Source: Lacunisphaera limnophila (lineage in GTDB: Bacteria > Verrucomicrobiota > Verrucomicrobiia > Opitutales > Opitutaceae). Taken from it: a stretch of DNA of 64,000 nt. The DNA is taken from assembly GCF_001746835.1 (NCBI RefSeq), contig NZ_CP016094.1, positions 620,001 through 684,000 of the forward strand, read 5' to 3'. Positions 3-7,029 of the stretch are shown one piece after another (position 1 is the stretch's first letter; each line of letters begins with the position of its first letter). Made by a program: the position numbers and the translations under genes. The notes below the pieces were generated by a model. The model searched no databases, had not been told where the DNA came from, and worked only from the letters and a program-made list of their open reading frames with translations.

Positions 3-722
3 CCATGGGGGGTGTTCGAATACGTGTTTGTCGGCCAGGATTACCGGAGACCCTTCAAGCTCTACACCGTCGCCGCGGCGAAGGAGCCGGTCACCGTCTC
101 AGGCGGCCTGACCGTGATGCCCAACCACGCCTTCGCCGACGCTCCCGCGCCCGATGTCATCGTGGTACCGGCCATAGACCTGGAAAAGCTCGCCCCCTCC
201 GCGCTCGAGTGGTTGCGCGCGGCGCAAGCAGACACCGCTGTCACGATGTCTGTTTGCAACGGGTCCCTTGTTCTCGGCCAGGCTGGCCTGCTCGACGGCA
301 AAACCGCCACCGCCCACCATGGCGGCTATACCACCCTGCGCGCGGAGTTCCCGAAGGTGAACGTGGTCCGCGGCGTCCGTTACGTCGAGGATGGCAAGAT
401 CGCCACCGCCGGCGGCCTGACTTCGGGCGTCGATCTCGCCCTGCGCGTGGTCGAACGCTACTACGGCCGAGAGGCGACGCTGCAAACCGCGCGGTATCTC
501 GAATACCAAGGCACTGGCTGGATGCATCCGCAGAGCAATGCCGAATTCGCCCGGAAGCCCGCTCAAGTTCCAGGATATTCGCTCTGCCCGGTCTGCGAAA
601 TGGGAGTCAGTGAAACAACCGCGCTGAAGACCGAATTTGAAAGGAAGACCCACTACTTCTGTAGCCAGTGGTGCCAAGATCACTTCGCGGCGAATCCCCA
701 ACGCTACCTCGACGCGAATTGA
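3..722 (+). CDS. DJ-1/PfpI family protein with C-terminal YHS domain (5' truncated by window edge)
   Basis: The frame is open to the left edge and begins PWGVFEYVF, which matches the middle of the usual DJ-1 N-terminus (DFAGPWEVF), so about 20-30 residues lie outside the window; the GTG at 12 is not a credible start. The DJ-1/ThiJ fold shows the nucleophile elbow SVCNGS and the downstream AGLLDGKTAT..H signature of the PfpI/isonitrile-hydratase-like branch. The last ~45 residues form a YHS domain (CPVCEMGV ... HYFCSQWCQDHFAANPQRYL), with CPVC in place of the usual DPVC, giving four cysteines able to bind a soft metal. YHS domains are common on copper proteins, and this gene lies 27 bp upstream of a copper cluster on the same strand, so a metal-related role is inferred. 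The enzymatic substrate cannot be told. Confidence 0.85.
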   Translation, partial: PWGVFEYVFVGQDYRRPFKLYTVAAAKEPVTVSGGLTVMPNHAFADAPAPDVIVVPAIDLEKLAPSALEWLRAAQADTAVTMSVCNGSLVLGQAGLLDGKTATAHHGGYTTLRAEFPKVNVVRGVRYVEDGKIATAGGLTSGVDLALRVVERYYGREATLQTARYLEYQGTGWMHPQSNAEFARKPAQVPGYSLCPVCEMGVSETTALKTEFERKTHYFCSQWCQDHFAANPQRYLDAN

Positions 723-749
723 GCCCCGCCCTCTGCCGCCATTCACCCC

Positions 750-1262
750 ATGAACTCCTGGAAATTCTCCCTCAAGCAGACGGCCGTCACCGTCTACATT
801 TTCTTCCTCATCATTGCGCTCGGCTACGCCGTCGGCTTCGCCGCCCACGGCCAGATGCTGGTCAAGATCGCGCTGCCGCTCGGCCTCGCCGTCATCCTCG
901 CCGTGTTCTGGCTCGGCCGCACTGCCGAGCTGCTGGCCTGGGCCGGTCTCACCACCTGGTTGGGCATGACCTACGCCCACACCGGCCCGCCGGTCGAGAT
1001 CGCCGTGTTTTTCGGCTACGTCGCTTGCGCCGCCCTCGGCGTCTTCCGCTCGCCGTGGTTCCTTGCCATTCCGTGGCTGGCTCACATCGGGTGGGACTTT
1101 CTGCCGCGCTCCCTGCCCAAGATGTATGAGGAACTGCCCCACGCCTGCGCCCTCTTCGACGGCCCGATCGGCCTCTACCTCGCCTGGGGCGCCTGGCGGC
1201 GCCGCTGGCCGCAACTTTCGCCCACGCCAAATCCGCAACCGACAACCGATCCGCATCCATGA
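750..1262 (+). CDS. Small integral membrane protein, resembles DUF6010
   Basis: A 170-residue protein with four to five hydrophobic segments (about residues 10-30, 34-55, 57-75, 83-105) and a conserved-looking polar patch HIGWDF...LPHACALFDG near residues 114-140. The H.GWD...P.AC..FD pattern and overall size recall the DUF6010 family of uncharacterised membrane proteins; that assignment is from memory and tentative. The C-terminus is a Pro/Thr-rich tail. The stop codon overlaps the ATG of the copper receptor (ATGA, 1259-1262), so the two are probably translationally coupled. By context it belongs to the copper operon; a role in inner-membrane metal handling is inference only. The start at 750 is preceded by a C-rich tract rather than a Shine-Dalgarno. 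Confidence 0.75.
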   Translation: MNSWKFSLKQTAVTVYIFFLIIALGYAVGFAAHGQMLVKIALPLGLAVILAVFWLGRTAELLAWAGLTTWLGMTYAHTGPPVEIAVFFGYVACAALGVFRSPWFLAIPWLAHIGWDFLPRSLPKMYEELPHACALFDGPIGLYLAWGAWRRRWPQLSPTPNPQPTTDPHP

Positions 1263-3346
1263 AAACGTCCGCCCGTGTCCTCCTGGCGCTGCTGGCCCAA
1301 GCCTCCACCGCTCTCCTCGCCCAAACCACCGCCCCGGCCCCCGCCGCGGGCGAATCCGACCCGATCCGGCTCGAGCCAGTGGTTATCACCGCGGCCCAGA
1401 CCCAACAGCCGCTCGTCATCACCGCCGACCCGAAGGCCCCCGCCCAGCCCGTGCCCGCCCACGACGGCGCGGACGTCCTCAAGAACATCCCGGGCTTCGC
1501 CGTCATCCGCAAGGGCGGCACCGACGGCGACCCCGTCCTCCGCGGCCTCGCCGGCTCCCGCCTCGGCATCCAGGTCGACGGCGAGTGCATCTTCGGCGGC
1601 TGCGGCTCCCGCATGGACCCGCCCACCGCCTACGTCTTCCCCACGGCCTACGACCGCATCACCGTCATCAAGGGCCCGCAGACCGTCCTCCACGGACCGG
1701 GCAACACCGCCGGCGTCGTGCTTTTCGAGCGCGACCTGCGCCGCCTCGACCAGCCGTATAACGGCTTCCTGGCCTCCGCCACCGCCGCCAGCTTCGGCCG
1801 CGTCGACGGCGTCGTGGATGCCCGCAGCGGCACCGCCACCGTGCAGGCCCGCGCCACCGGCACCTTCACCCGCGCCGACGATTACGAGGACGGCGCGGGC
1901 CGCGCCGTGCACTCCGCCTACGAACGTTGGAGCACCAACGCCACCCTCGCCTGGACCCCCGACGCCCACACCGTCGTCGAGTTCACCGGCGCCCGCAGCG
2001 ACGGCGAGGCCGCCTACGCCGACCGCATGATGGACGGTGTCCTCTTCGACCGCACCAACTATGCCGTCCAGGTCCGGCGCGAGAACCTCTCGTCCCTCGT
2101 CACCCGCGCCGAGGCCCGCTGGTTCCACAACTACGTGGACCACGTGATGGACAACTACACCCTGCGCCCCTTCGTCGCCTCCATGATGATGCCCGGCCGG
2201 TCCGTCTCGAACCCCGATCGCCTCACCACCGGCGGCCTCGCCCAGCTCACGCTCGCCCCGGCCGCCGCCGTCACCGTCACCGCCGGCCTCGACACCCAGC
2301 GCAACGTGCACGCCCTCCGCTCCACCATGAACCAAGGCATGATGCCCTACGAAGCCCGGGCCCGGGTGCGCGACGCGAAATTCACCCAGGCCGGCGCCTT
2401 TGCCGAGGGCAACTGGCTCGCCGCCCCGGGCCACCGCGTCATCGCCGGCGCACGTCTCGACCGCTGGGAGGCCCAGGATCCCCGCGCCACGGTCGCGCTT
2501 TCCATGATGAGCACCGCCGCCAACCCCAGCGCCGGGCGCACCCGCACCTCCGACCTGGCCAGCGGCTTCGCGCGCTACGAGCACGACCTCGACGGCGGGA
2601 CCCCGGTCACACTCTACGCCGGCCTCGGCCGCGTGCAGCGCTTCCCCGACTACTGGGAACTGATCAAGAACGAGAGCGCCGCCACCGTCTCCGCCTTCGG
2701 CACCAAGCCCGAGACTACGACCCAGTTCGACGCCGGCGCGCTCTACCGCGCGGGTCCGGTCGAGTTCTCCCTCTCGGTCTTCGCCGCGGACCTCGCCGAC
2801 TACATCCTCGTGCAGAGCAACGTCGCCAAACCCTCCGGCATGATGGGCAGCCGGATGGCCGTCATCACCCGCAACATCGACGCCTCCACCTTCGGCGGTG
2901 AGGCCGCGCTCGCCTGGCGCTTCGCCGAACACTGGAAGGCCGACGCCTCGCTCGCCTACGTGCGCGGCGAGAACGACACCGACTCCCGCCCCCTCGCGCA
3001 GCTGCCGCCGCTTGAGGGCCGCCTCGCTCTCGCCTACGCCACGACGGACTGGTCGGCCGGCGGCCTCGTCCGGCTCGTGTCCGCCCAGGACCGCGTCGCC
3101 GTCAACCAGGGCAACATCGTCGGCCAGGACATCGGCCGCTCGTCCGGCTTCGCCATCCTCTCCCTCAACGCCAGCCGCCGCTTCGGCCAGCACTTCCGCC
3201 TCTCCGCCGGAATCGACAATCTCCTCGACCGGACGTATGCTGAACATATCAGCCGCGCCGGCGGCATGGTGTCCGGCTTCATCCAGACCACCCGCGTCAA
3301 CGAACCCGGCCGCACCCTGTGGCTGAAGCTCGATGCGTCCTACTAA
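1259..3346 (+). CDS. TonB-dependent copper receptor, OprC/NosA type
   Basis: A 695-residue outer membrane receptor with signal peptide (cleavage near LLAQ, residue 20), plug domain (about 40-160, with VLKNIPGF, VLRGLAGSRLGIQVDG and VIKGPQTVLHGPGNTAG) and a 22-strand barrel ending NEPGRTLWLKLDASY. The plug carries C115xxxM119 (GGCGSRMD) and the barrel H295xM297 (DHVMDN). These match the CxxxM-HxM copper site described for Pseudomonas OprC, and the 180-residue Cys-to-His spacing equals the one I recall for OprC (C143/H323). Met-rich segments (SMMMPG, NQGMMPY, GMMGSRM) further suggest copper passage. It overlaps the preceding gene by 4 bp and is followed after 12 bp by a CusF-type protein. Function: TonB-driven uptake of copper into the periplasm; the family is known, the substrate here is inferred from the site. 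Confidence 0.93.
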   Translation: MKTSARVLLALLAQASTALLAQTTAPAPAAGESDPIRLEPVVITAAQTQQPLVITADPKAPAQPVPAHDGADVLKNIPGFAVIRKGGTDGDPVLRGLAGSRLGIQVDGECIFGGCGSRMDPPTAYVFPTAYDRITVIKGPQTVLHGPGNTAGVVLFERDLRRLDQPYNGFLASATAASFGRVDGVVDARSGTATVQARATGTFTRADDYEDGAGRAVHSAYERWSTNATLAWTPDAHTVVEFTGARSDGEAAYADRMMDGVLFDRTNYAVQVRRENLSSLVTRAEARWFHNYVDHVMDNYTLRPFVASMMMPGRSVSNPDRLTTGGLAQLTLAPAAAVTVTAGLDTQRNVHALRSTMNQGMMPYEARARVRDAKFTQAGAFAEGNWLAAPGHRVIAGARLDRWEAQDPRATVALSMMSTAANPSAGRTRTSDLASGFARYEHDLDGGTPVTLYAGLGRVQRFPDYWELIKNESAATVSAFGTKPETTTQFDAGALYRAGPVEFSLSVFAADLADYILVQSNVAKPSGMMGSRMAVITRNIDASTFGGEAALAWRFAEHWKADASLAYVRGENDTDSRPLAQLPPLEGRLALAYATTDWSAGGLVRLVSAQDRVAVNQGNIVGQDIGRSSGFAILSLNASRRFGQHFRLSAGIDNLLDRTYAEHISRAGGMVSGFIQTTRVNEPGRTLWLKLDASY

Positions 3347-3358
3347 ACCACCCTTCCC

Positions 3359-3757
3359 ATGAAATCATCCCTCCGCCTCCTCCTCGCGCTGCTTGCCCTC
3401 CCGGCCGCGACGCTCTGGGCCAACGAAAAAACCGACGCCCCGTCCAAGAACTGCGGCTGCGCCTGCTGCAAGGGCAAGGCCACCTGCTGCTGTAACGAGG
3501 AAACGTCCGCTGAACCCGCCCCACCCGACCAGGCGAAGCGGTACCCCCTCAAGGGCGTGATCATGGACATCCTCGCCGACCAGACCGCCCTCCTCGTCAA
3601 ACACGAGGCGATCCCCGGCTACATGAAGGCCATGACGATGCTGCTCAAGGTCGACGCCGCCACCCTCGCCGCCGCCACCAAGGGCCAGGCCATCACCGCC
3701 ACCCTCGTCGAGCGCGCGGACGGTTTCTGGCTCGAGGACGTCCAGTCGGCCAAGTAA
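3359..3757 (+). CDS. Periplasmic Cys-rich CusF-type copper-binding protein
   Basis: A 132-residue secreted protein: signal peptide (1-21, ending LWA), then a cysteine cluster with seven Cys between residues 32 and 45 (CGCACC ... CCC), then a CusF-type beta-barrel (about 61-130). The copper motif is H82 ... M89 xx M92 x M94 (KHEAIPGYMKAMTM). In E. coli CusF the ligands are His, two Met and a capping Trp44; aligned from the MTM end, the Trp position is Met89 here. Family knowledge: CusF domains bind Cu(I)/Ag(I) in the periplasm. The Cys cluster is an extra soft-metal site not normal for CusF. Spacing is 12 bp from the receptor and 7 bp to the next gene, so the same transcript. Likely role: first periplasmic acceptor of copper entering through the receptor (inference). 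Confidence 0.88.
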   Translation: MKSSLRLLLALLALPAATLWANEKTDAPSKNCGCACCKGKATCCCNEETSAEPAPPDQAKRYPLKGVIMDILADQTALLVKHEAIPGYMKAMTMLLKVDAATLAAATKGQAITATLVERADGFWLEDVQSAK

Positions 3758-3764
3758 CCCTCGC

Positions 3765-5990
3765 ATGCGCCCGCTGCTCCTCGTCCTCGCTCTCACGCTG
3801 GCCGGCTGTTCCCGCCAGGAACCGCCGGCCGCGCCCGCCCCCGCCGGCCCGAAGGAATACGCCCTGACCGGCGAGGTCGTGGCGCTCACCCCGGAGCGCA
3901 ACGCCATCATCGCGAAGCATGACGAGATCCCGGGTTACATGCCACCGATGACGATGGAGTTCATCGTCGAGGCGCCGGAACGCGCGAAGCTCGCCGAGGG
4001 CACGCGCTTCCGCGCCCGGCTGGTCGACGACGACTCGGGCACCTTGCGCCTGCTCGACGTCGTGCCGCTCGACCCGGTCAAGGAGGCCGCCGTGGCCGCC
4101 GCCGCCAACCAACTGCGGCAGGACACCTCCATGCGCGGCAACTCCGCCTACCGCGAGATCGGCGAAACCGTGCCGTCGTTCACCCTGTACGACCAGTACG
4201 GCGAGATTTTCTCCCCCAGCCGCGTCCGCGGAAAATGGGTCGTGATGAACTTCATCTACACCCGCTGCCCCATCGCCACGATGTGCCCCGCCGCCACCGC
4301 CCGCATGTATGACCTGCAACGAACCGCCCGCGAGCAGGGCCGCGACGACTTGGAGCTGATCTCCGTCACCCTCGATCCGGCCTACGACACGCCCCCCGTG
4401 CTGAAGAGCTACGCCGAAACCCGCGGCCTCGACGGAAGAAATTTCCACCTCCTCACCGGTCCCGAGGGCGCCGTGCGCGACCTGCTCGTCCAATTCGGCG
4501 TCATCGTCGAGCCCGGCGAAAATTTCCTGAAACACACCCTCGCCACGCTCCTTATCAACCCGCAGGGCAAGATCGTACACCGCGTGGACGGCACCTCCTG
4601 GAAACCGCAGGTCTTCCTCGACCGGTTGCCCGCGGTGAAACCCGCCCCCGCCGTCACGCCGCTCACCTCCGCCGTGCCCGCCGACTCCGGCGAGTCGAGC
4701 CTCGTCCGCGGCCCCGACGGCACGGTCTACCTGACCTATTCCGGCGCTGGGCGCTTGACCGAGGAGCGCGGCCTCTGGCTCGCCACCCTCGCCCCCGGGG
4801 CCGCCGCGTGGACCGCGCCGCGTCTCATCACGAGCACCCCGCTGCTCATGGAAAATTGGGCCGACTTCGCCACGCTCACCGTGGCGACCGACGGCACGCT
4901 CTGGGCCCAATGGTACCAGCGCCCGTCCGGCGACGAGCCCCGCGGCTACGATGGCTGGTTCGCCCGCTCGACCGACGGCGGTGATTCCTGGTCCGACCCC
5001 GCCCCGCTCGGCCACGAGTTCGTCAGCCTCGCCCCGCTCTCCGGCGGCCGCGTCCTCGCCGTGTGGCTCGAAAGCACCCGCGTGCGCGACCCAAACGCCC
5101 CGCGCGTGAAACGCGATCCCAACGCCCCGCGTCCGGCCCCGGACCCGAACGCCCCCTACGCGCCCTCGATGCGCCTGAAATCCCGCCTCCTCGCCCCCGA
5201 CGGCGCCGCCCTCCAGGAGTGGATCGTGGACCCCGACGTCTGCACCTGCTGCCAGACCACCCTCGCCTCCCTTCCCGACGACCACGTCCTCGTCTCCTAC
5301 CGCGGCCACCTGCCCGACGAGACCCGCGACAACCAGCTCGCCCGCTTCGATGGCACCGCCTGGGACACTCCCCGCACCCTGCACGACGACGGCTGGAAGA
5401 TCCCCGCCTGCCCCGTCAACGGCCCCGCCGCCGATGCCCTGCACGAGCATACCGCCGTGGCGTGGTTCACCGCTGCGGAGGGTGTGGCGAGGGTGCAGGC
5501 CAAACTCTCCCCCGACGGCGGTCGCACCTTCGGCCCCGCCCTGCCCATCGACCTCGGCCGCCCCATCGGGCGGCTCGACCTCGTGTCCCTCGCCGACGGC
5601 TCGTCCGTCATTTCCTGGCTCGAGGCCCGGAGCGAGAACAACGCCGCCGGCCTCTACGTGCGCCGCCTCTTCCCCGACGGCCGGCTCTCCGCCCCCCTGC
5701 AGGTCGCCGCCACCAGCGCCGTCCGCGCCAGCGGCTTTCCACGCCTGGCCGCCCAACCGGGCGACCACTTGCCCGTGGTCATCAGCTGGACCGACGCCAC
5801 CCCCTCCGACCCGGCCGACCCGAAATCGCCGGCCGCGACGCGCGTCCTCACCGCCCGCTTCGACGCCGCGCGCCTGGCCAAGGCCGCGCCCACCGCCGCC
5901 GTGCCCGGCTCCGTCCGGCCGATCGCCGTCGTGCGCGGCCAGAACCTCGAACTCCTCGAGGTTTGCGCCGTGCCGGAAATCGGCCACTGA
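3765..5990 (+). CDS. Lipoprotein fusing CusF, SCO1/SenC and a sialidase-like beta-propeller
   Basis: A 741-residue protein with a lipobox (LAGC, Cys15). Domain 1 (about 30-105) is CusF-type with H52, M59, M62, M64. Domain 2 (about 145-295) is SCO/thioredoxin-like: the motif FIYTRCPIATMCP holds C168 and C174, five residues apart rather than the classic CxxxC, and H257 (FLKHTLATLL) is the expected third copper ligand. Domain 3 (about 300-741) is a BNR/sialidase-like propeller, with Asp-box-like pieces such as STDGGDSW and SPDGGRTF, plus a C493xCC496 cluster (DVCTCC). SCO proteins insert or reduce copper in the CuA site of cytochrome oxidase; the propeller is probably a scaffold, since catalytic sialidase residues are not evident. 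Position between two other CusF genes argues for a periplasmic copper chaperone. Confidence 0.88.
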   Translation: MRPLLLVLALTLAGCSRQEPPAAPAPAGPKEYALTGEVVALTPERNAIIAKHDEIPGYMPPMTMEFIVEAPERAKLAEGTRFRARLVDDDSGTLRLLDVVPLDPVKEAAVAAAANQLRQDTSMRGNSAYREIGETVPSFTLYDQYGEIFSPSRVRGKWVVMNFIYTRCPIATMCPAATARMYDLQRTAREQGRDDLELISVTLDPAYDTPPVLKSYAETRGLDGRNFHLLTGPEGAVRDLLVQFGVIVEPGENFLKHTLATLLINPQGKIVHRVDGTSWKPQVFLDRLPAVKPAPAVTPLTSAVPADSGESSLVRGPDGTVYLTYSGAGRLTEERGLWLATLAPGAAAWTAPRLITSTPLLMENWADFATLTVATDGTLWAQWYQRPSGDEPRGYDGWFARSTDGGDSWSDPAPLGHEFVSLAPLSGGRVLAVWLESTRVRDPNAPRVKRDPNAPRPAPDPNAPYAPSMRLKSRLLAPDGAALQEWIVDPDVCTCCQTTLASLPDDHVLVSYRGHLPDETRDNQLARFDGTAWDTPRTLHDDGWKIPACPVNGPAADALHEHTAVAWFTAAEGVARVQAKLSPDGGRTFGPALPIDLGRPIGRLDLVSLADGSSVISWLEARSENNAAGLYVRRLFPDGRLSAPLQVAATSAVRASGFPRLAAQPGDHLPVVISWTDATPSDPADPKSPAATRVLTARFDAARLAKAAPTAAVPGSVRPIAVVRGQNLELLEVCAVPEIGH

Positions 5991-6000
5991 TTGCCCCATC

Positions 6001-7029
6001 ATGTTGCCCCGCGTTGCCCGCTTCCTCCTGCTCACCTGCCCGGTCCTGCTCGCCGCTCACGAATGCTGGCTCCAGCCCTCACGTTTTGACCCCGTCCCCG
6101 GTCAGGAGCTGGGGCTGCGCCTGAATGTCGGCATGAATTTCCAAGGCGAGGCGCGGCCTTTCAACCCGCAGCGTGCCGCGCGCCTGGCCTACTACTCTGC
6201 CGCCGGTGCCGCCGACTGGACCGGAAAGACCTCGGGCCAGACCGAACTGGATTTCTCGCTCCCCACTCCCGGCACCCACGTCCTCGCCCTCGATAGCGGC
6301 GCGAACCTCATCACCCTCGAGGCGGAAAAATTCAACGCCTACCTCAAGGAGGAAGGCCTCACCTCGGTTCTCGCCCAGCGCGAGCAGGCCGGGGAGACCA
6401 ACACGCCCGGCAAGGAACGCTACATCCGCCATATCAAGACCCTCCTGCAGGCCGGCGGCCGCAGTGACGACACCTGGCAGATACGCACCGGCCAGCGCCT
6501 TGAACTCGTGCCGCTCAACAACCCGGCGACCGTGCACCCCGGCGGCACGCAGCGCGTCCAATTGCTCTTCGCCGGCCAGCCGCTCGCCGACAACCTCGTC
6601 CGCGCCTGGCACCGGGCCGGCGACAAGCTAACGGTGATCGACGTTCGCACGAGCGCCTCCGGTGAAGCCGCCTTCACCTTGCCCGCCGCCGGAGCGTGGA
6701 TGCTGAGTACGGTGCACATGGCCCGTGTCACCGGCGACGCGCAGGCCGACTGGGAAAGCCTCTGGGGCAACCTCACCTTCGCGATCACCGAGCCCGCACC
6801 CGCCCACCCGGTGAAGGGCGTGATCATGGGCATCATGACGGAGAAGACTGCGCTGCTCGTGAAGCACGAGGAGGTCCCTGGCGTGATGCGCGCCATGACG
6901 ATGATGTTCAAGGTCGACCCCGCCGTGCTGACGCGCGTGAAACGCACCGACGCGATTCGCGGCAAGATGCAACGCCGCCCCGACGGCTGGTGGCTCCTCG
7001 ACGTCGAGGTCCTCCCCCCGGCGAAATAA
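6001..7029 (+). CDS. DUF4198-CusF fusion, periplasmic
   Basis: A 342-residue protein. The ATG at 6001 is chosen because a signal peptide starts there (MLPRVARFLLLTCPVLLAA) and the mature part opens HECWLQP, the normal N-terminal signature of DUF4198. Residues 20-260 are the DUF4198 beta-sandwich (family associated with metal and cobalt/nickel transport genes); residues 265-342 are a CusF domain with H289, M296, M299, M301 (KHEEVPGVMRAMTM). It is the third CusF domain within four genes. The gap to the upstream stop is 10 bp. If signal peptidase cuts after Ala19, His20 becomes the mature N-terminus, which could take part in copper binding as in histidine-brace proteins; this is speculation. A palindrome at 7058-7090 closes the cluster. 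The frame is open upstream of 6001 but that part overlaps the previous gene. Confidence 0.83.
   Translation: MLPRVARFLLLTCPVLLAAHECWLQPSRFDPVPGQELGLRLNVGMNFQGEARPFNPQRAARLAYYSAAGAADWTGKTSGQTELDFSLPTPGTHVLALDSGANLITLEAEKFNAYLKEEGLTSVLAQREQAGETNTPGKERYIRHIKTLLQAGGRSDDTWQIRTGQRLELVPLNNPATVHPGGTQRVQLLFAGQPLADNLVRAWHRAGDKLTVIDVRTSASGEAAFTLPAAGAWMLSTVHMARVTGDAQADWESLWGNLTFAITEPAPAHPVKGVIMGIMTEKTALLVKHEEVPGVMRAMTMMFKVDPAVLTRVKRTDAIRGKMQRRPDGWWLLDVEVLPPAK

Follow-up and report, generated by a model that had tools for sequence, protein, structure and literature searches.

The window, a 64,000-nucleotide stretch of Lacunisphaera limnophila DNA (contig NZ_CP016094.1), opens with six genes at positions 3-722, 750-1262, 1259-3346, 3359-3757, 3765-5990 and 6001-7029, separated by intervals of 27, -4, 12, 7 and 10 bp. 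An earlier, sequence-only reading had described them as a six-gene operon of consecutive, closely spaced genes on one strand. Their positions and intervals are confirmed and the gene run stands, but it is not complete, as five more ORFs on the same strand lie upstream and place the start of the unit about 6.3 kb beyond the window edge. The first of the six does encode DJ-1 and YHS domains; its supposed start at position 3, however, is merely where the window edge truncates the gene, which begins at window position -204. The six genes are the tail of a longer cluster, probably for copper uptake. Upstream genes are numbered below in the extended locus L007, from which window positions are obtained by subtracting 12000; negative window positions lie upstream of the edge.

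L007 5657-6043 (window -6343 to -5957), same strand as the six window genes: leader ORF
L007 6227-8458, same strand as the window genes: TonB receptor, TBDR_A
L007 8536-9099, same strand as the window genes: 187-residue membrane protein, mem187
L007 9096-9638, same strand as the window genes: cytochrome c lipoprotein
L007 9657-11783, same strand as the window genes: TonB receptor, TBDR_B
L007 11796-12722 (window -204 to 722), plus strand: DJ-1/PfpI and YHS protein (Pfam) with a signal-like N-terminus
750-1262, plus strand: 170-residue membrane protein, DUF6010-like below cut-off
1259-3346, plus strand: OprC, TonB-dependent copper receptor (TIGR01778, copper ligands)
3359-3757, plus strand: Cys-rich periplasmic protein with a CusF domain (PF11604)
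3765-5990, plus strand: lipoprotein with CusF, SCO1/SenC (CX5C) and a propeller carrying VCTCC and CPVNGP
4650-5987, plus strand: propeller domain of this lipoprotein, with four invariant Cys (residues 198, 200, 201 and 254 of the stretch)
6001-7029, plus strand: DUF4198 and CusF protein with a probable mature N-terminal His (AHECWL)

Consensus scans neither split this run nor prove a single unit, since their matches are at chance level: seven terminator-like matches against 4.3 expected upstream and one against 3.9 in the window, with all plus-strand terminator-like matches inside genes, and no promoter-like match upstream and one in the window. Rfam gave no match over L007 4000-14000.

The proposed copper receptor is borne out. 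OprC scores 696.8 bits on TIGR01778 (TonB-copper; cut-off 472.45), and in a PDB search the structures of Pseudomonas aeruginosa OprC were the sole matches at E<=1e-20. The likeness to that protein (PDB 6fok) is nearly full-length and includes the same CxxxM-HxM site, formed by C143, M147, H323 and M325 in P. aeruginosa, according to the available part of PMC8610252, and by C115, M119, H295 and M297 here. The C-M-H-M pattern is kept in all 40 aligned sequences, the one from the window included. While the site shows no difference between the two receptors, their operon contexts differ.

All three CusF domains noted previously score above the PF11604 cut-off of 27 (36.8, 32.3 and 36.8 bits); as the 4.2 Mb genome holds just four such domains, their concentration here exceeds chance. 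The pattern H-x6-M-x2-MTM occurs in 53 of 55 CusF-labelled genes, and the Trp of E. coli CusF has no counterpart at the corresponding place. The SCO part of the lipoprotein matches SCO1-SenC (PF02630; 82.6 bits, cut-off 22.8). The copper motif of SCO1/SenC chaperones is defined as CxxxC, whereas the lipoprotein reads CPIATMC, a CX5C spacing found in 13 of 14 SCO-labelled genes; the His-Thr/Ser motif is shared with the chaperones, likewise in 13 of 14. A CusF-SCO paralogue adjoins ctaA, a UbiA (ctaB-like) gene and genes for COX2, COX1 and COX3, and so shares the neighbourhood of SCO chaperones as well; unlike these, the SCO domain is fused to CusF and, in this cluster, also to the propeller. 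Comparable fusions recur in relatives: CusF+SCO (11), propeller+CusF (6), and CusF+propeller+CusF, DUF4198+CusF, CusF+SCO+propeller and DUF4198+propeller (2 each), besides one CusF+propeller. Together with the copper site of OprC, these fusions support the earlier proposal of copper uptake combined with periplasmic carriers.

Among the remaining components, the DUF4198 domain is unambiguous by score (PF10670; 120.1 bits, cut-off 34), and in all nine listed DUF4198 proteins, judged by eye, AHE follows the signal-like N-terminus, giving a putative mature N-terminal His. The DJ-1/PfpI and YHS domains of the first window gene lie above their curated cut-offs. The 170-residue protein is a membrane protein as described before, but its assignment to DUF6010 (PF19473) does not hold at 15.7 bits against a cut-off of 27.3.

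Both the leader and a second, CrtA-related receptor escaped the sequence-only reading because they lie outside the window. CrtA is the nearest solved TonB receptor to TBDR_A (9rvq, 269 bits; next 123), also by profile comparison (349 bits; next 155). TBDR_A was nevertheless not assigned to CrtA: residue pairs read by eye from HMMER alignments place R372, an Arg invariant in TBDR_A, at the essential H358 of CrtA, and further replace Q356 by I370, Y130 by T126 and W265 by Y260, so that only E337 and R395 remain (2/6). TBDR_A and TBDR_B both score above the cut-off of the TonB-siderophor subfamily.

The leader ORF has a hydrophobic N-terminus, a CxxC motif and a C-terminus reading PPPR-A-stop. 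In all 39 leaders found by BLAST, CxxC is combined with [P/R]PPR located 1-7 residues before the stop, at a CxxC-to-PPR spacing of 58-71 residues. Such an ORF lies within about 1.2 kb upstream of 36 of the 41 OprC ORFs examined, two of the other five being at contig ends, and upstream of 15 of 21 TBDR_A ORFs, with five more behind an OprC that has a leader and one at a contig end. The interval to the receptor gene is long (110-463 bp in the 34 cases measured); since in many cases a same-strand gene precedes the leader, its place as first gene is only putative. By profile search, 70 of 288 Verrucomicrobiota genomes contain such leaders. All 41 leaders outside the family have CxxC; PPR is present in 27, a run of PPP in a further 11, and neither in three. 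In 15 of the 41, the next gene encodes a TonB receptor, and the 64 proteins scanned downstream with Pfam include 14 TonB barrels, six cytochromes c, four PepSY_TM and three SCO proteins. At the protein level, dN/dS for the leader was 0.17 against G161, close to the 0.18 of the operon lipoprotein, and 0.45 and 0.54 against two other leaders. The leader matches no Pfam family. We rejected membership in DUF2946 (PF11162), which has no match in the genome and was absent from the 12 families obtained for the 39 leaders at E<=10, in a HMMER-level comparison whose filters drop most matches above about 0.1; the C-terminal RAPP is absent too, [P/R]PPR standing in its place in 39/39. The region behind the leader showed no conserved RNA structure. 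A Rho-type C-over-G bubble was likewise rejected: in 27 of 34 cases the leader-receptor gap has a higher C content than the receptor gene, but the C-over-G excess is unexceptional for this genome. Compared with coding windows, the mean of the focal gap ranks at the 76th percentile and its best leader-plus-gap window at the 98th.

The synteny that the sequence-only reading had proposed as a check is only partly there. The exact six-gene order occurs in none of 60 relative loci chosen for containing OprC or the propeller/lipoprotein, while a looser core of the cluster recurs among them; DJ-1/YHS, DUF6010, mem187 and TBDR_B are rare or absent in the relatives' clusters, and a CusF, SCO, propeller or DUF4198 gene lies within 6 kb of OprC in only 17 of 41 OprC loci. 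The close propeller subfamily is accompanied by TBDR_A in 20 of 24 genomes (P=5e-18) and 7 of 8 genera (P=3e-6), both values being inflated by relatedness. With OprC it shows no association (5/46 OprC genomes, P=0.80), and we rejected OprC as its partner; a second propeller subfamily, about 30-40% identical, follows some OprC genes. In these counts the best five candidates per genome were scored under E-value limits that differ between lists, which makes absences soft. Of the seven sampled genomes with both OprC and TBDR_A, six have the two receptors together in a single leader-headed cluster.

Based on these results, we consider it probable, at roughly 60%, that the locus is an operon for the acquisition and delivery of copper, beginning about 6.3 kb upstream of the window edge and placed under leader-peptide control, its genes presumably being co-transcribed. 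The leader would be a copper-sensing peptide of the CruR/CutF type, with CxxC as the sensor and a polyproline arrest motif, putatively PPPR, at the stop codon, and would tune transcription or translation of the downstream genes to copper. Two kinds of receptor, the CrtA-related one, with copper as its presumed ligand, and OprC, would import copper through the outer membrane. In the periplasm, Cu(I) would be bound by CusF domains and accepted by the CusF-SCO-propeller lipoprotein, in which the SCO part and the four-Cys propeller would serve as donor and acceptor. A respiratory cuproenzyme, such as cytochrome oxidase or possibly NirK, may be the final recipient.

The sequence-only reading knew of no described pathway in which these parts come together, and this was too strong: judging from the parts of the papers available, operons headed by CruR that include OprC-type receptors, SCO and PCuAC (PMC9426467) and crtA operons with ScoI/PCuAC (PMC12914433) have been described, and the cluster is a variant of these published CruR-headed OprC/SCO operons. 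The closest known systems, on the same partial basis, are the latter and the cruR-crtA-crpH operon of Bordetella pertussis (PMC9426467, PMC12914433, PMC13038864). Shared features are the small CxxC ORF, the long interval, a copper TonB receptor and, in some, SCO-type chaperones; the gene types behind verrucomicrobial leaders (TonB receptor, PepSY_TM, SCO) also overlap the partners reported for CruR. In contrast to the operons as described there, OprC and a CrtA relative occur together here, and CusF, DUF4198 and propeller proteins stand where PCuAC does. By sequence, the leader is laid out in a way resembling the copper-sensing uORFs CruR and CutF, the leader peptides of this kind that, in the sources as available, have been studied in detail, with CopL mentioned as similar. 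CruR itself has 45 residues between CxxC and its C-terminal motif (PMC9426467, available part); the verrucomicrobial leader differs in having no DUF2946 match and in ending on PPPR rather than RAPP. CutF of the Rhodobacter CutF-CutO-CutG system is a DUF2946 protein with CxxxC, unlike our leader, and controls a multicopper oxidase, whose expression it raises with copper (PMC9973294, available part). Arrest by CruR and CutF is described as not yet experimentally demonstrated in the accessible part of PMC10987492.

It is conceivable that the cluster serves copper defence, its periplasmic CusF, SCO, DUF4198 and propeller proteins sequestering excess copper with the receptors as bystanders. CusF was originally known from the Cus efflux system, some distant propellers lie near genes for multicopper oxidases or heavy-metal ATPases, and CutF-type leaders often precede efflux or detoxification genes (PMC9973294, available part). 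We regard this as improbable, however, as the cluster was found to encode neither an efflux pump nor a Cu-ATPase or multicopper oxidase, and as OprC and CrtA are reported, in the portions of the literature available, to be importers whose genes are lowered by copper. An unlikely alternative of a different kind would divide the locus into two or three adjoining units for different metals, joined by position only: a siderophore-type block for iron or nickel (TBDR_A, mem187, cytochrome c and TBDR_B) and a copper block from OprC to DUF4198-CusF. The subfamily scores of both receptors would fit this division, as would the nickel preference of one studied DUF4198 protein (PMC12537917), the arrangement TBDR_A-CusF-lipoprotein-DUF4198/CusF in G161, where the middle block is absent, and G037, where leader-OprC and leader-TBDR_A lie at two separate places. 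Yet the tie between TBDR_A and the close propeller, its P values inflated by relatedness, and the six leader-headed clusters that unite both receptors argue against it.

The leader, finally, might be an ordinary small exported copper-binding protein rather than a regulator, a rather unlikely option. Its hydrophobic N-terminus with CxxC and the purifying selection on the protein agree with this, and CutF-like proteins vary in their mode of action (PMC9973294, available part). Its conserved PPR at the extreme C-terminus speaks against it, as does the receptor interval, which is long as in CruR (162 bp; PMC9426467, available part).

The propeller is a specific candidate for a copper protein that has so far escaped recognition. 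It reaches 25.0 bits on BNR_2, below the cut-off of 31.4, although the 30 sequences of alignment A1, among them the window propeller, all match at E<=0.01; A1 leaves out L023 and five other propeller-labelled genes, and a joint CusF-SCO/propeller alignment (A2) was misaligned and discarded. For alignment A3, 59 of 80 loci were taken and four with stops or unknown residues removed; 35 of the remaining 55, plus the window, were used, and the structure model derives from A3 only. This confident model is a beta-propeller, with Foldseek matches to sialidase/PLL-lectin type propellers (E to 2e-10, TM about 0.5). The likeness is limited to fold class and an Asp-box stretch; the VC[T/D]CC and CPVNG motifs and the thioredoxin-fold neighbours set our domain apart. 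The family spans several phyla with four conserved Cys. CxCC is present in 35 of 36 propeller-labelled genes, the exception, L023, being the weakest match, and in all 55 usable propellers from the 80-locus set. Neither the propeller family nor a PPPR leader appears in the titles and abstract openings listed by literature searches, mostly non-subscription, on the propeller, DUF4198 with copper, verrucomicrobial copper leaders, DUF2946/CruR and OprC with SCO/CusF; the CruR and CutF papers do not use 'Verruco' in their main text, nor does PMC10987492 use 'PPPR'.

How copper passes the bacterial outer membrane and is handed over to enzymes is poorly known. A possible, if speculative, extension of our reading holds that Verrucomicrobiota have their own phylum-wide nascent-chain copper sensors (CxxC...PPPR-stop, with no detectable DUF2946 kinship) heading copper-receptor operons, that the VC[T/D]CC/CPVNGP propeller is a new copper protein with a four-Cys site loaded or kept reduced by an SCO or TlpA-like partner, and that, in this genome, a single lipoprotein combines chaperone with client, and two receptor operons, each under leader control, have become one. 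If true, such a sequence-distinct leader family would mean that nascent-chain metal sensing arose or diverged repeatedly. Outside Verrucomicrobiota, 44 loci were collected, of which three had no called propeller gene; thioredoxin-fold genes stand beside the propeller in 15 of the other 41, counted with a profile built from 12 of the neighbours and with several near-duplicate loci, and Pfam confirmed the fold in 10 of 10 neighbours scanned. A multicopper oxidase is encoded within four genes of the distant propeller at L114, L123 and L127, and a heavy-metal ATPase at L123 and L138.

Judged by its own sequence and that of its relatives, the copper gene cluster that opens the window is best accounted for as an operon for acquiring copper. 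In this account a leader peptide would control it, receptors of two types would serve it, and its periplasmic copper carriers would be assembled from shuffled domains (CusF, SCO, DUF4198, propeller); its expression, the arrest, the propeller's binding of copper and the identity of the end user are all elements that we infer. This kind of system is already known from CruR-headed operons; what is new is the leader family, together with the propeller and the fusions. The six ORFs proposed in the sequence-only reading were found at the same positions, with gaps of 27, -4, 12, 7 and 10 bp, and Pfam and NCBIfam recovered most of their assigned domains: DJ-1/PfpI with YHS, a TonB-dependent copper receptor (OprC; 696.8 bits on TIGR01778 of NCBIfam), CusF, CusF with SCO1/SenC, and DUF4198 with CusF. 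DUF6010, however, stayed below the cut-off, and the BNR match of the CusF-SCO-propeller lipoprotein was weak (Pfam). Three of the four CusF domains above cut-off in the whole genome lie in this cluster; the fourth belongs to a CusF-SCO gene at 90-91 kb, which adjoins ctaA, UbiA-type (ctaB-like), COX2, COX1 and COX3 genes.

The unit extends beyond the window on its upstream side. Gene 1 (DJ-1/YHS) truly starts at window -204, and 5' of it runs a same-strand series of TBDR_B (gap 12 bp), a cytochrome c lipoprotein (18), the membrane protein mem187 (-4) and TBDR_A (77), with a small leader ORF on the same strand 183 bp further up from TBDR_A. On L007, the locus stretch with upstream DNA (window coordinate = L007 minus 12000), these features are:

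L007:5657-6043, same strand as the operon: leader, a small CxxC ORF heading the cluster
L007:6227-8458, same strand as the operon: TBDR_A, a TonB receptor
L007:8536-9099, same strand: mem187, a 187-aa membrane protein (FUSC_2 18.4 bits, cut-off 25.6)
L007:9096-9638, same strand: cytochrome c lipoprotein (PF00034, 51.2 bits)
L007:9657-11783, same strand: TBDR_B, a TonB receptor with a Met-rich stretch in the plug
L007:11796-12722, same strand: DJ-1/YHS protein

A LigT-like gene 127 bp downstream of the cluster need not belong to the unit. In the closest relative, G161, the order is leader-TBDR_A-CusF-lipoprotein-DUF4198/CusF, and the six genes that run here from mem187 to OprC are missing; this block was therefore either gained in the host or lost in G161. 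DJ-1/YHS, DUF6010 and TBDR_B have no counterpart in the clusters of the mapped relatives, except for gene 5 of L046, in which CusF is fused to a DJ-1-like domain, an independent link between the two; a mem187-like gene is present in L061. A TIR-domain gene (L007:4242-5480, window -7758 to -6520) lies 95 bp 5' of the gene caller's longer leader version, and its homologues adjoin the leader or cluster in L014, L021, L022 and L070 and lie a few genes upstream in L024.

Judged by its alignment with relatives, the leader probably starts at the GTG at L007:5657, giving 128 codons, with a hydrophobic N-terminus, a CDLC motif and the C-terminus VPVPPPRA before the stop. All 39 BLAST-found leaders have a single CxxC and, 1-7 residues from the stop, a [P/R]PPR motif, the two being spaced by 58-71 residues. 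Its dN/dS is 0.17 against the G161 leader (codons 7 to 128; 0.18 for the operon lipoprotein), and 0.45 and 0.54 against two more distant leaders. No Pfam family matched the focal leader at E<=10 and none was common to more than two of the 39, DUF2946 not being among the families listed. The leader profile matched 70 of 288 Verrucomicrobiota genomes, other orders and classes included, and one leader only in the host. The 40 places taken outside the family yielded 41 leaders, all with CxxC, 27 with PPR, 11 more with a PPP run and three with neither, counts that are not fully independent because the search profile includes those columns.

The next gene encodes a TonB receptor, by our own profiles, behind 15 of these 41 (one has no called gene behind it). 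Of the 69 proteins encoded one or two genes downstream of distant leaders, 64 were scanned with Pfam, giving TonB barrel (14), cytochrome c (6), Phenol_MetA_deg (6), PepSY_TM (4), SCO (3) and BNR_2 (2), the remainder being many single unrelated families. In position, CxxC and part of its partners the leader resembles the CruR uORF as portrayed in passages of PMC9426467, and in the same respects it is partly like CutF (passages of PMC9973294). Stalling is relieved by copper in the CruR model; for CutF, copper is proposed to prolong it. A ~350-384 aa family beginning 'HAPI.....H.H..G.WM..YR.M' recurs behind distant leaders (L197, L203, L205, L210, L215, L216, L221), two scanned members matching Phenol_MetA_deg, and an 865-878 aa gene follows those of L199, L213 and L219, the one scanned matching Lactonase propeller plus CCP_MauG.

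OprC aligns over nearly its whole length with P. aeruginosa OprC structures, whose four copper ligands, taken from passages of PMC8610252, are kept in 40/40 aligned sequences. TBDR_A matches CrtA (9rvq) far above every other structure and is, judged by sequence, a CrtA relative; the CrtA residues given as essential or conserved in section 7 of PMC12914433 are, however, mostly replaced, with an invariant Arg for His358, and an assignment as CrtA itself was rejected. In 61 loci (the focal upstream region plus 60 loci of relatives, picked for OprC or propeller/lipoprotein), a leader lies within ~1.2 kb upstream of 36 of 41 OprC ORFs, the other five including two at contig ends, and of 15 of 21 TBDR_A ORFs; the TBDR_A ORFs without their own leader comprise five behind a leader-OprC pair and one at a contig end. 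CusF, SCO, propeller or DUF4198 follows within 6 kb downstream of 17/41 OprC and 19/21 TBDR_A. Across 200 family genomes, OprC occurs in 46, TBDR_A in 24 and both in seven, six of which have them in one cluster; in the family genome G037 each has its own leader. Of the 27 TonB-receptor barrels that exceed the cut-off in the host, three are in this cluster; a second TBDR_A-like receptor (44% identity) lies elsewhere, at G000:C1:1068179-1070434.

As for the putative carriers, the CusF motif H-x6-M-x2-MTM is kept in 53 of 55 genes, the SCO Cys motif is CX5C in 13 of 14, and in 9/9 listed DUF4198 proteins the mature chain probably begins with His. A simple copper role for DUF4198 is less favoured, since a studied member bound Ni better than Cu (passages of PMC12537917). 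In L009:6619-15939, a cluster combines a NirK-cytochrome c fusion with one COX1-type and one CuA-type subunit; its two SCO genes read CxxxC at the Cys motif.

The lipoprotein's third domain is a beta-propeller according to its predicted model (pLDDT 86.8, pTM 0.85), which resembles both PLL lectins and sialidases (TM about 0.5). The mapped relatives mostly have it as a separate gene, often adjoining CusF-SCO; the triple fusion was seen there in two proteins, the host's and G161's. CxCC and CPVNGP are each present in 35 of 36 propeller-labelled genes, and C198, C200, C201 and C254 are invariant in both alignments (30 family members; 36 sequences from several phyla). Named genomes gave at least 588 matched stretches (568 confirmed, 80 kept), with Verrucomicrobiota, Gemmatimonadota, Acidobacteriota, Bacteroidota, Pseudomonadota and others among the matches listed. 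The close propeller subfamily is found in 20 of 24 TBDR_A genomes (P=5e-18) and, by genus, in 7/8 (P=3e-6), relatedness inflating both P values and absences being soft; it is found in only 5 of 46 OprC genomes, where absences are likewise soft. Outside Verrucomicrobiota, 44 loci were tried and 41 had a called propeller gene, which a same-strand thioredoxin-fold gene adjoins in 15 (Gemmatimonadota, Acidobacteriota, Bacteroidota) and not in 26; as a control, the 307 genes lying two to six positions away gave one match. AhpC-TSA/Redoxin exceeded the cut-off in all ten of the 15 neighbours scanned. Genes for DUF3347, a multicopper oxidase or a heavy-metal ATPase also occur close to distant propellers (L119, L145, L114, L127, L123, L138).
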